Positions 12,203 to 32,848 of a DNA stretch of 33,084 bases are shown one piece after another. This DNA comes from Acidobacteriota bacterium. Its GTDB lineage: Bacteria; Actinomycetota; Acidimicrobiia; Acidimicrobiales; RAAP-2. Location: NCBI GenBank assembly GCA_018971385.1, contig JAGXAY010000015.1:1-33084 (forward strand), read 5' to 3'. The translations under genes were made by a program, and so were the position numbers. The notes below the pieces were generated by a model. The model was not told where the DNA came from, did no database searches, and saw nothing but the letters and a program-made list of their open reading frames with translations. How positions within the stretch are numbered: position 1 is the stretch's first letter; the number at the start of each line of letters is the position of its first letter.

Positions 12203-13453
12203 TCAACTGTTCGACGGTCGTCGAGCGTGGGGGTGATGGTGTCGGGAGGCGAAAACAGCCAGTCCGGCAGCCGCGGCGCAGGAGAGTGCCCCCACCCCGA
12301 GACCCCAGCGGGCGTTCGTCGCGTTGGTGATCCACCCGACGAGTGGGCCCCCGATAGGAGTAGATCCCAGGAATGCCACGGCCCACAGCGACATCACCCG
12401 TCCCCGCATCTGGGGATCGGCCGCGAGTTGGAGTGTGGAATTTGCGGTCGCGAGAAAGGCGACGCTGGCGTATCCGACGGCGACGAAGGCCACGTCCTCG
12501 AACAGCATTGAGGGCATGAGAGCGGCCGCCGCCATCGAGAGTGCGAAGAGCACGGCTCCGCGTTGCAGTGCTCTCGTTCCGGTCGACCCGCGAGCGGCCG
12601 TCATCAGTCCACCGATTACCGCGCCAATACCCATCGCGGAGGTCAACTCCCCGAACCCCACCGAGTTGTGGTGGAAGACCCGCTCGGCGAGGACCGGCAT
12701 CGTGACCTGAAACTCGTAAGCGAAGGTTCCGACCAGGGCCATCATGACGAGGGGGATGGCGAGCGTGGGGGTCCGTCGGACGTAGGCGAGCCCTTCTCGA
12801 AGTTGCCCTTTAGCGCGCGGTGTGGGCTCGGCTCGATGCAACAACGTCTCGTCCATCGCCCACAGTGATCCGACAACGGCGACGAAGGAGACGGCGTTCA
12901 GAGCAAAACACCACCCCTCCCCCACGGTGGCGATGAGGACACCGGCGAGAGCGGGGCCGACAGCCCGAGCCACGTTCACCATGGTCGAGTTCAGACTGAC
13001 CGCGTTTCGTAAGTCGCTCGGTCCGACCATCTCCAAGACGAAGGTCTGGCGGATCGGGTTCTCGAAGGCGTTGTTCACGCCGAGGACCACCGCGAGGAGG
13101 CCCACGTCGGCGAAGGTCGCCACGTGGGCGAAGGTGACGAGGGCGAGCAGGGCGGCCTGCACCCCCATGAGCGACTGGAGGACCATCATCAGACGGCGCT
13201 TGTTGACCCGATCGGCCACGACGCCGGCGTAGGGACCGAGGAGAAGAGTCGGCAGGGTCTGGAGCGCGATGACGATGCCGATGTCGGTCGCCGAGTGGGT
13301 CAGGACGAGAACGAGCCAGGACTGAGCGATGGCCTGCATCCACGTGCCCACGAGCGAGACGCCCTGGCCGAGGACGTACTTGCGATAGTTGGGATTAGCG
13401 AGTGACGCGAAGGTGGTTCGCGCCGCGTCCCGGGCCGTCTCCCGAACACTCAC
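12203..13453 (-). CDS. MFS exporter (EntS/MFS_3-like), coupled to MarR
   Basis: This 416-residue membrane protein has about 12 hydrophobic spans and the features of the EntS-like MFS_3 group. These are NPNYRKYVLGQGVSLVGTWMQ at the start, the loop motif GVVADRVNKRRLM and FENPIRQTFVLEMV. A His-rich tail follows the last span. The GTG start overlaps the MarR stop as GTGA, so the regulator and exporter are co-translated. By family and context it probably exports a toxic or antimicrobial compound that the MarR protein senses. It is the first gene with the high-GC composition of the right-hand part. Confidence 0.9.
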   Translation of the reverse strand: MSVRETARDAARTTFASLANPNYRKYVLGQGVSLVGTWMQAIAQSWLVLVLTHSATDIGIVIALQTLPTLLLGPYAGVVADRVNKRRLMMVLQSLMGVQAALLALVTFAHVATFADVGLLAVVLGVNNAFENPIRQTFVLEMVGPSDLRNAVSLNSTMVNVARAVGPALAGVLIATVGEGWCFALNAVSFVAVVGSLWAMDETLLHRAEPTPRAKGQLREGLAYVRRTPTLAIPLVMMALVGTFAYEFQVTMPVLAERVFHHNSVGFGELTSAMGIGAVIGGLMTAARGSTGTRALQRGAVLFALSMAAAALMPSMLFEDVAFVAVGYASVAFLATANSTLQLAADPQMRGRVMSLWAVAFLGSTPIGGPLVGWITNATNARWGLGVGALSCAAAAGLAVFASRHHHPHARRPSNS

Positions 13454-13944
13454 TCGAGACCACCCCGCAGCCGCTGAACCAGGCCGTCCAACGCATCGAG
13501 GGCGTCGTCGATTCGTCGGCGCTCCTCGGGGTCTAACTGCTCGAGGGCGGCGCGCAGAAGGTCACGACGTTCGCTACGAATGGACTCCACCAACTCCTCG
13601 GCGGCCCTCGTCGGGCCGAGAAGAGCGACGCGGGCGTCGTTGTCGTCGACGCGGCGCTCGGCGAGCCCGGACTCCTCCAACTTCGCCGCCACCCGCGACA
13701 GCATGGTCGGATTAATACCGACGTCCTCGGCGAGGTCAGCCATGCGACGGGGACCCCGTCGAGCGAGCACGATCACCACTTCGAGCTGGGACGGGGTGAG
13801 ATCGTGATCCGGACGCGACAAGCGCAGGGCCCGCTGAATTCGTGCGACCGCGATGCGGAGCCGTTCGGCCGACTCGTCCACGCTGGCGGGGACTTCCGAG
13901 GTCGTTAGTTCACTCACACCACCAGGGTAGCGTTTAGTTGCCAT
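13450..13944 (-). CDS. MarR-family transcription regulator
   Basis: This 164-residue winged-helix protein has the MarR pattern: LTPSQLEVVIVLARRGPRRM, then LAEDVGINPTMLSRVAAKLEESGL (recognition helix) and the wing ERRVDDNDARVALL. MarR proteins repress exporters until a ligand binds. The ATG at 13944 is listed, but a GTG at 13917 is equally possible. With the later start, the palindrome at 13935-13961 lies fully upstream of the gene; with the ATG it covers the start codon. Either position suits autorepression. The same palindrome recurs at 21240-21266. Confidence 0.9.
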   Translation of the reverse strand: MATKRYPGGVSELTTSEVPASVDESAERLRIAVARIQRALRLSRPDHDLTPSQLEVVIVLARRGPRRMADLAEDVGINPTMLSRVAAKLEESGLAERRVDDNDARVALLGPTRAAEELVESIRSERRDLLRAALEQLDPEERRRIDDALDALDGLVQRLRGGLE

Positions 13945-13961
13945 TCGGCAAGCAATTTACC
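13935..13961. promoter_or_regulatory. Candidate MarR operator, copy 1
   Basis: The site reads TAGTTGC, three variable bases, TCGGCAAGCAATT, one variable base and ACC. Its outer arms TTGC (13938-13941) and GCAA (13952-13955) are inverted. It begins right at the DUF2017 stop and covers the upstream MarR start. A near-identical copy lies at 21240-21266; only four of the 27 aligned positions differ. Confidence 0.65.
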
Positions 13962-14392
13962 TACAGGACGTCGGCGAGGCTCCACAGGAGAGCCTGGATT
14001 CCCTGCAGCGTCTCGCGAATGACCGGTTCCAGGGACTCAATCTCCGTCTCCTTGCGCACACCGGCGCCGAGGTGAAGGGCGCGCAGTCCCACCTGGAGAG
14101 TGCACAACCACGCCCAGGCCTCGTCGTCGTTCAGGAACTCCTCCTCGAGAGTGCTGAGAACCAACTCGGCGTGACTGGTGACCTCGGACTGGCGAGCCAG
14201 GACGACGAGGGGGTCGTCGGCGTCGTCGACCGGCGTGATGGGAGAGGTGAGCGACGCCCACCACTGGTGGTCGGGGTCCGTCTCGGCCGCCAACGTCTCC
14301 GCCGCGACGTATTTCACCAGGTCCCGTCCGGGTTGGTTCAGTCGCACTTCGATCCGACCATCCCGGCGACGCACGAAGATCCGGGGAGCCAC
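13961..14392 (-). CDS. DUF2017 family protein, ClpS neighbour
   Basis: This 143-residue protein of the actinobacterial DUF2017 family is almost always found just downstream of clpS. Visible traits are an N-terminal strand region, a RDLVKYVAAETL helix, LEEEFLNDDEAWAWLCTLQVGLRALHLG and a hydrophobic C-terminal helix. No catalytic motif is known. The GTG start shares its first base with the ClpS stop (TAGTG), so the two are co-translated. A role in ClpS/ClpC-dependent proteolysis is suggested only by this conserved pairing. Confidence 0.85.
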   Translation of the reverse strand: MAPRIFVRRRDGRIEVRLNQPGRDLVKYVAAETLAAETDPDHQWWASLTSPITPVDDADDPLVVLARQSEVTSHAELVLSTLEEEFLNDDEAWAWLCTLQVGLRALHLGAGVRKETEIESLEPVIRETLQGIQALLWSLADVL

Positions 14393-19966: not shown

Positions 19967-20245
19967 GTGGACGACCTCCTCGTCGATATCTGGGTGCACC
20001 CCGGGTCCCGGGTCACGCGAGTGGGGGGACGTCGGGAGGGGGCCCTCGTCGTCAAGGTCCGGGCCCGGGCCGTCGACGGCGCGGCGAACGACGCCCTGCT
20101 CGAGGCGGTGGCCGACGCCTTCGAGCGACCCCCGAGAGACGTCGCCCTGGAGCGCGGTCGGCGTTCCCGCCACAAAGTCGTTCGCGTCAGTGGCCCCGCC
20201 CACCTCCTGCGGGAACGTTTAGAGGAGCTACGGGCGAGGGACTAG
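19967..20245 (+). CDS. DUF167 (YggU-like) family protein
   Basis: This 92-residue protein matches the DUF167/YggU family of unknown function. The family core is present: VHPGSRVTRVGG, LVVKVRARAVDGAANDALLEAVADAF, then VALERGRRSRHKVVRVSG. The GTG start lacks a clear ribosome site and lies 39 bases from the divergent acyl-CoA synthetase start. Its stop shares CTAG with the stop of the convergent desaturase gene. Confidence 0.9.
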   Translation: MDDLLVDIWVHPGSRVTRVGGRREGALVVKVRARAVDGAANDALLEAVADAFERPPRDVALERGRRSRHKVVRVSGPAHLLRERLEELRARD

Positions 20246-21171
20246 GCCGGGGCTCCGGCCACCCCCGCGGCCCGCTCGGCCGCGCGCGCGACGCTCGCCC
20301 GCAAGGTGTCGAGGGAGGCGAACAGGCGCTCGCGGGCCTTCTCGGCCTCACCGTTCAGCCCCTCGAGCGCCGAGATCTTCCACGAGTCCACCATCGGCTC
20401 CACGACGTCCTCCAAAAACTGCTGGAGCCCGTAGATGCCCTCGCGAGCGATGCGCACGGCGTGGCGGGTGAAGCGCGGAATCCCCGTTCCCGGCATCGCG
20501 AATCGTTCGATCTGTCGTTCGAGGGACTGCACGATCGTCGAGGGGTCGATGAGCAGGGCCGCCCCCACGAGGTCCCGGTAGAACATGTAGTGCTTGGTCT
20601 CGTCTCCGGCGACGAGGCCGAGGACGTTACGACCGACCCGGTCCTCCTTCGGGAGTTTCGAGGCGGTGTTGCGGTGCGCAATCTGGGTGGCGCGCTCCTG
20701 GAAGGCGACGTAGGAGATGAGGTCGGAGAAGGTCTCGGGTTCGGGGTACTCCCCGCTCGTCATCTGGATTCTCCGGCCGTCCTCGAGAACCACCGGGTCG
20801 ATGCAGCGCGAGATGTTCACCCAGTCGCGCATCACCATGGCGTGGCGATTCTCCTCCGCCGTCCACTGGTAGGACCACTCCCGAATGGGGTGGTCCTTCG
20901 GGGCGTGGCCAAGAATGGTTGTTGTGTAGTACGGCAGGTTGTCCTCGGTGAGCAGATTCACGTAAATCGAGGACCGAACCCCCTCGCTCGTCACGTACTG
21001 GTCGGGTGACCAGGGGCTCGTCTGAAAGTCCTCCCCCTCACCCCAGGGGATCTGCTCGTGGGGGTACCACAGGCGCGGCGCGTCCATGTGGCGATTGAAG
21101 AGGCGCTCTACGTCGGCTCGAATGTCGAAGAGGATCTCGCGATCGGGTACGTCGTGTGACTCCACCGTCAT
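20242..21171 (-). CDS. Acyl-ACP desaturase, soluble diiron
   Basis: This 309-residue protein belongs to the stearoyl-ACP desaturase family, ferritin-like diiron enzymes that put a double bond in acyl-ACP chains. All six expected ligands are seen: Glu76, Glu107 and His110 in EENRH, Glu159 in FQERATQ, and Glu191 and His194 in DETKH. The lead-in RLWYPHEQIPWGEGEDF is typical of actinobacterial members. The start could be ATG 21171, ATG 21195 (eight residues more) or GTG 21165, and no ribosome site decides it. It is divergent from an MFS exporter, with a candidate MarR operator between them. Confidence 0.92.
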   Translation of the reverse strand: MTVESHDVPDREILFDIRADVERLFNRHMDAPRLWYPHEQIPWGEGEDFQTSPWSPDQYVTSEGVRSSIYVNLLTEDNLPYYTTTILGHAPKDHPIREWSYQWTAEENRHAMVMRDWVNISRCIDPVVLEDGRRIQMTSGEYPEPETFSDLISYVAFQERATQIAHRNTASKLPKEDRVGRNVLGLVAGDETKHYMFYRDLVGAALLIDPSTIVQSLERQIERFAMPGTGIPRFTRHAVRIAREGIYGLQQFLEDVVEPMVDSWKISALEGLNGEAEKARERLFASLDTLRASVARAAERAAGVAGAPA

Positions 21172-21239
21172 CCTTAGAAATACTGAGGTTCCCATCGTAC
21201 TCGCGCACCACGGCGCCGCCCGTTAAGAATCCCTCTATC

Positions 21240-21266
21240 TAGTTGCTTATCGGCAAGCAATTAACC
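21240..21266. promoter_or_regulatory. Candidate MarR operator, copy 2
   Basis: This copy of the site at 13935-13961 has longer perfect arms: TTGCTT (21243-21248) and AAGCAA (21255-21260), with six bases between. It ends 16 bases before the GTG of the DHA2 exporter and lies about 45-70 bases upstream of the desaturase starts, so one bound regulator could control both genes. Confidence 0.62.
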
Positions 21267-21282
21267 GCTATCCTTCCCCGTA

Positions 21283-23019
21283 GTGGCGTCACTCTCCTTC
21301 CTTCGACCGACCCCCCCGTCCACCCTCGAGACCTCCTCGCGTTACAAGTGGGTGGCCCTCGCCATCGTCACGACGGGGATGTTGATGGCCACCATCGACT
21401 CCTCCATCGTTCTCATCGCGATGCCGGCGATTTTCCGGGGCATCGGGATGGACCCCCTGCAGCCGGGCAACTCCTTCTACCTGCTGTGGATGATGCTCGG
21501 ATTCCTGATCGTGACCTCCGTCTTGGTCGTGAGCCTCGGGCGTCTCGGGGACATGTACGGACGGGTGCGGATCTACAACGCCGGCTTCGCCCTCTTCACC
21601 CTCTTCTCGGCCGCCCTCTCGGTGACCTGGATGCACGGGCGCGCCGCCGGGTGGTGGCTCGTGATTATGCGCCTCTTTCAAGCCCTCGGCGCCGCCATGT
21701 TGATGTCCAACTCCTCGGCGATTCTGACCGACGCCTTCCCTGCCCACCAACGGGGTCTCGCCATGGGCGCCAATCAGGCGGCCGCGTTCTCGGGCTCCTT
21801 CATCGGCCTCATCGTGGGTGGACTGCTCGCCCCCTTCGATTGGCACCTCATCTTCCTCGTCTCGGTGCCGGTGGGTATCGCCGGCACCTACTTCGGCTAC
21901 CGGTCCCTCCGAGAACTGGGGGAACGCCACCGCGCCCGCATCGACTGGTGGGGCAATCTCACCTTCGCGCTCGGGCTCGTCTCTCTCATGGTGGGTCTCA
22001 CCTACGGCATTCAGTCCTACGGGGGACACCCCATGGGCTGGACCTCACCCCTCGTGCGGGGCGGAATCGTCCTCGGCGTGACGCTCCTCGCGGTATTCGT
22101 CGTCATGGAACGGCGCATCGCCGAACCCATGTTCCGCCTCCCCCTCCTCAAGATCCGGGCCTTCACCTCGGGGGTCGCCGCGTCCTTTCTCGCCGCCCTC
22201 TCGCGAGGGGGACTCATGTTCCTTCTCGTGATCTGGCTGCAGGGCATCTGGCTGCCCGAGCACGGCTACGACTTCGCGCGCACGCCCCTGTGGGCCGGGG
22301 TCGCCATGATTCCCCTCACCGTCGGGATGCTCATCTCCGGACCGCTCTCGGGGTACCTCTCCGACCGCTTCGGGCCCCGGCCCTTCGCGACGGGGGGCAT
22401 GATCGGCACGGCCGGGTGCTTCCTCGCCCTCCAGCTCATCCCGGTCGACTTCTCCTACCCCGTCTTCGGCCTCGTCCTCTTTCTCACCGGACTCTGCATG
22501 GCGGCCTTCGGGTCACCCAATCGCGCCGGCGTGATGAACGCCCTGCCCCCGCGCGAGCGCGGCGTCGGGTCGGGGATGTACACCACGTTCCAGAACTCGG
22601 CCCAGGTCTTCTCCATCGGCCTCTTCTTCACCCTGCTCATCGTGGGTCTCTCGGCGAGTCTCTCCACCCAGCTCGACGCCGGGCTGCTCGCTCACGGGGT
22701 CTCCCCCCTCGACGCGGCGCGCGCGAGTCACCTCCCGCCCATCGCCACCCTCTTCGCGGCCTTTCTCGGGGTGAACCCCGTCGCCCACCTCCTCGGGGCC
22801 CACGGGCTCGCGTCCCTCACGGCTGCTCAGCGCGCCACGTTGACGGGACACTCCTTCTTCCCCCACCTCATCCAGAACAGTTTTCACACCGGCCTGCGCT
22901 GGGCCCTCGACTTCGCCATCGGGGCCAGTCTCCTCGCGGCCCTCGCGAGTTGGGTTCGCGGTGAGCGCGTGCCGCTCGAGGAGCTCTCCCTCCCGGGCGA
23001 GGTCCTCGTCACCGACTAG
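21283..23019 (+). CDS. DHA2/EmrB-type MFS multidrug exporter
   Basis: This 578-residue protein has about 14 membrane spans, the DHA2 (EmrB/QacA) layout. Diagnostic parts are MATIDSSIVLIAMPAI in the first span, the loop motif GRLGDMYGRVR, and the long exterior region near HGVSPLDAARASHLPP before the last span. Such proteins expel drugs, dyes or lipophilic compounds with proton antiport. The GTG start at 21283 follows the candidate MarR operator. It converges on the precorrin-2 dehydrogenase gene, whose open frame continues into it on the other strand. Confidence 0.9.
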   Translation: MASLSFLRPTPPSTLETSSRYKWVALAIVTTGMLMATIDSSIVLIAMPAIFRGIGMDPLQPGNSFYLLWMMLGFLIVTSVLVVSLGRLGDMYGRVRIYNAGFALFTLFSAALSVTWMHGRAAGWWLVIMRLFQALGAAMLMSNSSAILTDAFPAHQRGLAMGANQAAAFSGSFIGLIVGGLLAPFDWHLIFLVSVPVGIAGTYFGYRSLRELGERHRARIDWWGNLTFALGLVSLMVGLTYGIQSYGGHPMGWTSPLVRGGIVLGVTLLAVFVVMERRIAEPMFRLPLLKIRAFTSGVAASFLAALSRGGLMFLLVIWLQGIWLPEHGYDFARTPLWAGVAMIPLTVGMLISGPLSGYLSDRFGPRPFATGGMIGTAGCFLALQLIPVDFSYPVFGLVLFLTGLCMAAFGSPNRAGVMNALPPRERGVGSGMYTTFQNSAQVFSIGLFFTLLIVGLSASLSTQLDAGLLAHGVSPLDAARASHLPPIATLFAAFLGVNPVAHLLGAHGLASLTAAQRATLTGHSFFPHLIQNSFHTGLRWALDFAIGASLLAALASWVRGERVPLEELSLPGEVLVTD

Positions 23020-31591: not shown

Positions 31592-32848
31592 GTGCCGTTC
31601 CTCGACCGCCTCGCCCCCGCCGACTTTCGCGCCGAAGTGCGCGGCCCGGTGCGTCGGCTCTACCAGGTCACCCTGATCAACACCTTCGGAAACGGCATGG
31701 CCTTCGCCATGTTCGTCGTCTACCTGCACAACGTCCGGGGCTTCTCCACGACCTTCGCGACTCTCCTCCTCACCGCGACGGCCCTCGTCGGTCTCGTCAC
31801 CGGTCCGCTGTGGGGAACGCTCATCGACCGCATCGGACCGGCCAAGGTCGGACTCGCCTCCATGGTGCTCTCCGCCTTCGGACTCGCCCTCTGGACTCGG
31901 GTTCGAACTCACGAGGAAGCCATCGTGATCGCCCTCATCATTACCGTGTTCGAGGGAGCCGGGTGGGGGCCGGGCCTCGTCATGCTCACCCGCCTGGTCT
32001 CCGAAGAACACCGCCAACGCGCCTACGGCGTGAACTTCATGTTCGTGAACCTGGGCATCGGTTCGGGGCTACTCGTCTCGGCGGCCATCGTGAGCCTTCG
32101 TCACCCCGTGACGTTCACGTGGCTCTACCTCTTCGACGCCGCGATGACGATGGTCGCCGCCTCCCTGTTCGCCACTCTCGCCCCCTACGGGCGTCCCGTT
32201 CACGAGGAGCACGAGCACGGGGACTCACGACAGGGCTGGGGCGTCGTCCTACGGGACCGGCGCCTTCGCCACTACGTCTTCGCGAGCCTCGTGCTCATTC
32301 TCGGCGGCTACGGTTCGGTCGACGCGGGGCTCAGCCTCTTCATCGTGAACAATCTCCACGTCTCCATCCACGTCATCGGCATCACCTTCTTCTTCAACAC
32401 CGTGACGGTGGTGCTCGCCCAGCTCTGGGTCCTTAACCGGATGGAGGGCCACTCGCGGACCCGCATGATGGCGCTCGTCTCGGTCCTGTGGTTCGTCTTC
32501 TGGGCGGCGCTCGAGTTCTCCCTCGCCCTCCCGCTCGTCGCCATCGTCGTACTCCTCTGCGCGGCCCAGGTGGTCTTCGCGATCGGGGAGACCATGTTGC
32601 AACCCTCGGGGTCGGCCATCATCAACCACATCGCCCCCGAACACCTGCGGGGACGTTACAACTCCGCCGCGGGAGCCGCGTGGGGAGTCTCCAATACTCT
32701 GGCTCCCGCCATCACCGGCCTCTACTACTCCCTCCACGCGGGTAACTGGTGGCCGATCGGAACGGGTCTGACCGTCCTCGTCGGTGGTCTCATGATGCTG
32801 CGCCTACGCCACGAACTGAGCGCCGAGGAGGACGGGCGCCGAGCCTAG
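31592..32848 (+). CDS. MFS transporter
   Basis: This 418-residue protein has about 12 hydrophobic spans of the MFS_1 type, with the loop motif GPLWGTLIDRIGPAKVG after the second span and a His/Glu-rich central loop (VHEEHEHGD). The GTG at 31592 is chosen because AGGAG ends five bases before it; a GTG at 31586 overlaps that ribosome site. The substrate is unknown. A TetR-like palindrome lies about 90 bases upstream. The stop shares CTAG with the stop of the convergent F420-type gene. Confidence 0.88.
   Translation: MPFLDRLAPADFRAEVRGPVRRLYQVTLINTFGNGMAFAMFVVYLHNVRGFSTTFATLLLTATALVGLVTGPLWGTLIDRIGPAKVGLASMVLSAFGLALWTRVRTHEEAIVIALIITVFEGAGWGPGLVMLTRLVSEEHRQRAYGVNFMFVNLGIGSGLLVSAAIVSLRHPVTFTWLYLFDAAMTMVAASLFATLAPYGRPVHEEHEHGDSRQGWGVVLRDRRLRHYVFASLVLILGGYGSVDAGLSLFIVNNLHVSIHVIGITFFFNTVTVVLAQLWVLNRMEGHSRTRMMALVSVLWFVFWAALEFSLALPLVAIVVLLCAAQVVFAIGETMLQPSGSAIINHIAPEHLRGRYNSAAGAAWGVSNTLAPAITGLYYSLHAGNWWPIGTGLTVLVGGLMMLRLRHELSAEEDGRRA

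Follow-up and report, generated by a model that had tools for sequence, protein, structure and literature searches.

A MarR-family regulator with predicted operators at its own marR-MFS_3 operon and at a separate DHA2-like exporter gene

Introduction

In Neisseria, the gene of the regulator FarR is unlinked to the efflux pump genes farAB, and FarB is of the DHA2 type. FarR/NadR belongs to the MarR family and is described in PMC3568044 as a repressor of farAB with additional targets, which also binds the promoter of its own gene. MalR of Corynebacterium glutamicum, an actinobacterial MarR protein, is described in PMC6536590 as having palindromic sites at several promoters and roles in the cell envelope.

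Here we analyse a stretch of 33,084 nucleotides (the window) in which a marR gene is followed by an MFS_3-type exporter gene and a DHA2-like exporter gene lies some distance away. As far as sequence can tell, the locus has the layout of a FarR-type regulon, with an operator at the regulator's own promoter and another at a separate pump gene, and it shows the MarR-family trait of a dyad-symmetric operator at its own promoter. The scheme of own promoter plus efflux pump is that given for FarR in PMC3568044; the operator and the phylum, however, are different, and the MarR of the window has its own MFS_3 exporter in the operon. MalR, with the very AT-rich motif and the more than 60 bound promoter regions ascribed to it in PMC6536590, differs from the MarR of the window with its two sites. 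The matches listed in a literature search for TTGCTTGC together with MarR were on unrelated subjects, and a description of the operator was not found among the matches listed in this and other searches.

The MarR winged-helix domain is recognized in the protein by PF01047 (43.6 bits, cut-off 24.6) and PF12802 (40.2 bits, cut-off 27), and the best PDB matches of its predicted model (pLDDT 87.4) are MarR proteins, NadR (5aip) being among the fold matches. The solved proteins most similar to it, in sequence as well as in predicted fold, are Rv0880, Rv1404 and Rv0042c of Mycobacterium tuberculosis (4yif, 2nyx, 9u7b), with ~24-31% identity. The protein reaches the cut-off of no NCBIfam model, the score against the Rv0880 family model NF052438 being 59.7 bits with a cut-off of 220.

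Results

Two copies of an imperfect dyad

The element TAGTTGCnnnTCGGCAAGCAATT was found at 13935 and 21240 of the window; a scan of the 33 kb with up to 3 mismatches allowed gave these 2 matches and no other, and 100 dinucleotide shuffles of the window gave 0 matches at the same threshold. The same 2 matches are the only ones at up to 3 mismatches in the whole genome (2,098,020 bases in 221 contigs, 96% complete; labelled G000), where a reversed-pattern control gave 0. The whole-genome check suggested in an earlier note on this DNA thus finds a motif that is neither common nor scattered in genes. That note had recorded both copies correctly, and its hand count of 23 identical positions out of 27 is reproduced by an ungapped comparison. 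What it called a palindrome is indeed a dyad, albeit an imperfect one of 24 bp, with 9 of 13 paired positions at 21240 and 7 of 13 at 13935; in the 24-bp form, the symmetry of the 13935 copy (dyad 1) is poor, with 6 of 12 pairs in G000.

A more general pattern for the dyad, RTTGCYTN6ARGCAAY, is matched genome-wide at up to 1 mismatch by the copies at 13935 and 21240 (dyad 2) only. At up to 2 mismatches it has 23 places, compared with 62 for the reversed control, and the 21 places beyond the two copies are therefore noise. Both copies also fit the longer pattern TTGCTTN8GCAAYTAANCGCTAYCCT, read toward marR on the minus strand and toward the exporter on the plus strand, which likewise occurs just twice at up to 3 mismatches. 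Accordingly, each dyad is followed by a -10-like box, TACCCT or TATCCT, with a GTG 6 or 8 bases further on. No clear -35 box could be made out for the dyad promoters, and the window holds no tRNA and no Rfam match. The features are collected in Table 1.

Table 1. Features of the two dyad promoters and their genes, with positions in the window, and the loci of the sister operator type
Feature	Position	Strand	Basis and remarks
MFS_3-type exporter, overlaps marR end	12203..13453	-	PF05977 9.2e-59
marR, 155 aa from GTG	13450..13917	-	PF01047 2.8e-11 on longer ORF; start revised
-10-like box TACCCT of marR (inferred)	13924..13929	-	dyad spacing equal to that of the exporter promoter; TANNNT in most of 29 marR rows
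Dyad 1, predicted operator of marR-MFS_3 operon	13935..13958	-	toward marR reads AAATTGCTTGCCGAATGGCAACTA; PWM 21.8 bits
Acyl-ACP desaturase family gene	20242..21171	-	PF03405 4e-54; ATG 21171 likelier start (conserved AAGGATGACGGTG), longest ORF from 21195
-10-like box TACGAT of desaturase (inferred)	21194..21199	-	42 bp from dyad
Dyad 2, predicted operator of DHA2-like exporter	21240..21263	+	genome scan, conservation, model R1; PWM 36.5 bits
-10-like box TATCCT of exporter (inferred)	21269..21274	+	
DHA2-like exporter, 578 aa, GTG start	21283..23019	+	PF07690 6.2e-37
Sister-operator loci	L097-L099, L101-L105, L110, L111, L113, L114, L127		

The two promoters

The earlier note had placed the 13935 copy over the start of MarR. 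In the longest marR ORF, this copy overlaps just the initial ATG (13944), and in both close relatives, the loci L005 (Acidimicrobiaceae MAG, JABEUS010000048.1) and L006 (MAG ZJ3.bin40, JAKBAZ010000049.1), which belong to two genomes of the genus, G083 and G100, in-frame stops lie between the position of that ATG and the GTG. The marR start is therefore most likely GTG 13917, and dyad 1 sits in the marR promoter rather than on the start of the gene. GTG 13917 begins 6 bases past the -10-like box, a geometry from which we infer a leaderless start of marR.

Directly upstream of marR, a 143-aa protein is encoded (13961-14392, minus strand), which occupies the same place in both close relatives with 73% and 83% identity; it has no Pfam or NCBIfam match.

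For the exporter at 21283, the best model is TIGR00711 (3.4e-45), and the protein belongs to MFS_1; since its 154.7 bits fall below the TIGR00711 cut-off of 230.2, we name it DHA2-like. In an alignment of the region between desaturase and exporter, 30 of the 33 columns of dyad and -10 box are invariant, compared with 6 of 37 in the spacer.

Conservation in relatives and in the genus

G083 and G100 each carry one dyad before marR-MFS_3, that of G083 being 4 mismatches off, and one between desaturase and exporter; the pair with both contexts was seen in three genomes only, namely G000, G083 and G100. Exporters 73-78% identical in five relatives (G024, G030, G009, G005, G023) have no dyad within 260 bases upstream, hence the exporter site is specific to the clade of the window, having been gained there or lost elsewhere.

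Protein similarity identified 17 marR-MFS_3 orthologs in the genus, that of the window included, and all 17 have a dyad just upstream of marR. With 12 more rows from motif searches, which are biased by their origin, there are 29 marR genes with an MFS_3 neighbour, in which 1-7 of the 24 dyad positions differ from the consensus; in most of them, a TANNNT box precedes a GTG or ATG. A further six marR-MFS_3 pairs, more distantly related and from other families (L024, L025, L027, L029, L032, L033), stand outside this set of 29, and no match was found in them even with 5 mismatches allowed.

A scan of the genus found 42 dyad places in 30 of 99 genomes. Of these, 23 precede marR-MFS_3 (two of them placed by coordinates), 9 precede DHA2 exporters of a different type (52-56% identical), and 3 are the sites in the desaturase-exporter intergenic region; in the remaining 7 cases, none of the five genes used as queries lies close by. 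At L125, L131 and L249, in three genomes and likewise away from the query genes, a motif-like string, CAGTGGCATATCGGCAAGC(A/G)(A/G)TT, was seen in nearly identical form; it is possibly a conserved coding stretch.

Motif models built from other species

A position weight matrix (PWM) was built from 26 operators outside the clade of the window. Applied to the window, it gives 36.5 bits for dyad 2, 21.8 for dyad 1 and -2.9 for the next position; dyad 1 thus falls below the leave-one-out range of the PWM, 24.1-42.3 bits. Scores of 21.8 and 36.5 bits were attained by 1 and 0, respectively, of 100 order-2 Markov sequences with a length of 33 kb. Dyad 1 of G083 scores 17.2 bits and fits better to the other operator type of the genus (23.2 bits), which is taken up below.

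Model R1 was made from 22 distinct operators of marR promoters of other species, the three clade genomes being left out. With 150 first-look candidates scored per genome and with rough E-values, its top match is the exporter site in G000, G083 and G100 (E 1.6e-4, 1.4e-4 and 1.3e-3). Dyad 1 is reported among these candidates in G100 only (E 0.5), and in G000 and G083 it is absent up to an E-value of 10.

Which MarR protein owns the dyads

A PF12802 search of the three genomes gave 38 MarR-like hits, and the 30 with a locus were scanned, including all 21 over the Pfam cut-off; the other 8 are weak hits. The dyad stands at 3 of these 30 loci, which are the three orthologs of the MarR of the window (17.2-25.2 bits; next -0.1). 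In a quick tree, the marR-MFS_3 genes fall on one side of a branch with an SH-aLRT of 96, and across 14 aligned orthologs the recognition-helix residues N, T, M, S and R do not vary.

Other genus members have a sister operator type with a different centre, TTGCTTG(A/T)NNNCAAGCAA-like, in front of DHA2 exporters, of which several adjoin a different MarR. In G000 itself, contig C164 (L068) carries a marR-DHA2 pair with a diverged dyad, GTTGCGTGCATACACGCACGTA, in which one base is changed in the relatives (L211, L212).

Weighing the readings of the two sites

Could the likeness of the two copies be accidental, or stem from a dispersed repeat or from a promoter piece that was recently duplicated nearby and has no regulatory role? 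The copies are just 7.3 kb apart, as such a duplication would have them, but the clean shuffles, the two copies genome-wide, the outcome of the generic-dyad scan and the contexts kept in two other genomes make this reading hardly credible, and chance or a dispersed repeat is rejected. Greater weight belongs to the proposal that dyad 2 serves a different MarR as operator, such as the C164 paralog, whose gene accompanies that of a related DHA2 exporter, and that the likeness of dyad 2 to dyad 1 reflects half-sites common to MarR paralogs. The genus indeed has its second operator type, TTGCTTG(A/T)NN..CAAGCAA, before DHA2 exporters of another type, and the PWM of this marR-DHA2 type gives dyad 2 34.8 bits. 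With 36.5 as against 34.8 bits on dyad 2, the PWM is too weak to separate the two operator types; given this resemblance, the assignment to a MarR rests on the MarR set of the genomes and not on the motif alone. In that set, the C164-type MarR has a different dyad of its own, GTTGCGTGCATACA(C/T)GCACGTA, in all three genomes with one base varying, which disfavours it as the owner of dyad 2, and none of the other MarR-like loci scanned (27 of the 30) has a TTGCTTG dyad. We accordingly regard ownership by another MarR as improbable.

A further proposal leaves the exporter under the MarR of the window and adds the desaturase: the 21240 site would serve both divergent genes, and the regulon would link export to membrane lipid desaturation. 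Between the two genes, conserved blocks are limited to the dyad and to the -10 box and start of the desaturase itself, and the ancestral palindrome of the desaturase promoter, described below, is missing in the clade of the window. However, in all three genomes 40-42 bp separate the end of the dyad from the -10-like box of the desaturase downstream of it (42, 40 and 42 bp in G000, G083 and G100), which is too far for simple blocking, and the exporter promoter suffices to explain the conservation of dyad 2. Control of the desaturase by this MarR is thus possible but unlikely; the gene is kept outside the core regulon, as a neighbour, with proximity as the point in favour of membership.

The desaturase promoter in relatives

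By eye, a palindrome CTTGTGN8CACAAG is present at the desaturase promoter in 9 of 10 other genus members compared (G005 being unclear). At up to 2 mismatches it occurs in 32 of 61 genomes, and a desaturase adjoins 15 of 30 fetched loci (the palindrome loci include L223, L225, L226, L228, L232 and L233); G000 has 0 matches at this threshold. This suggests an unnamed regulator of fatty-acid desaturation in genus members. In five relatives (G023, G024, G030, G005, G009), the desaturase has an MFS gene beside it; the homolog of this MFS gene in the window, 52% identical, lies ~10 kb from the desaturase (31592-32839, plus strand). With another palindrome and another MFS neighbour in the relatives, the control of the desaturase has changed in the clade of the window. 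That the MarR took over this control is speculation. The fuller scenario, a regulatory capture in which the exporter replaced another MFS gene beside the desaturase, CTTGTGN8CACAAG was lost and the operator of marR-MFS_3 came in its place, so that one MarR governs two pumps and desaturation, is one that we hold only tentatively and think rather doubtful.

Discussion

We propose that both dyads are operators of the MarR encoded at 13450-13917, which would repress the marR-MFS_3 operon that encodes it and also the distant DHA2-like exporter gene; to this explanation as a whole we give a probability of about 0.82. Control by one MarR of the operon that it belongs to and of an unlinked DHA2-like exporter is a well-supported prediction, because a model from other species ranks the 21240 site first, both sites are kept in context in two relatives, and the dyad lies upstream of all the orthologs found by protein similarity. 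The earlier note had proposed one MarR regulon of two exporters and a lipid-modifying enzyme: its two exporters are borne out by the contexts in G083 and G100, by the tie between dyad and MarR subfamily and by the 3 of 30 loci, and the desaturase, for which proximity alone speaks, is a less likely third target.

As to the mechanism, a MarR dimer would bind each 24-bp dyad. The dyad would occupy the -35 region, beside the TANNNT -10 box and the presumed leaderless start, and RNA polymerase would thereby be blocked at the promoter of the marR-MFS_3 operon and at that of the exporter at 21283. A small molecule, probably a substrate of the pumps, may then release both operators.

This is a known kind of system, FarR-like, and a case of well-conserved but ordinary gene control. 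What it offers is a small, clean predicted regulon in an actinobacterial genus seen through draft genomes, in which operator, -10 box and presumed leaderless start are arranged alike at two promoters, and a correction of the start of marR. It also illustrates the way in which a repressor already present can be extended to an exporter that lacks a regulator. If the regulatory capture were true, one MarR would govern two pumps and membrane desaturation together.
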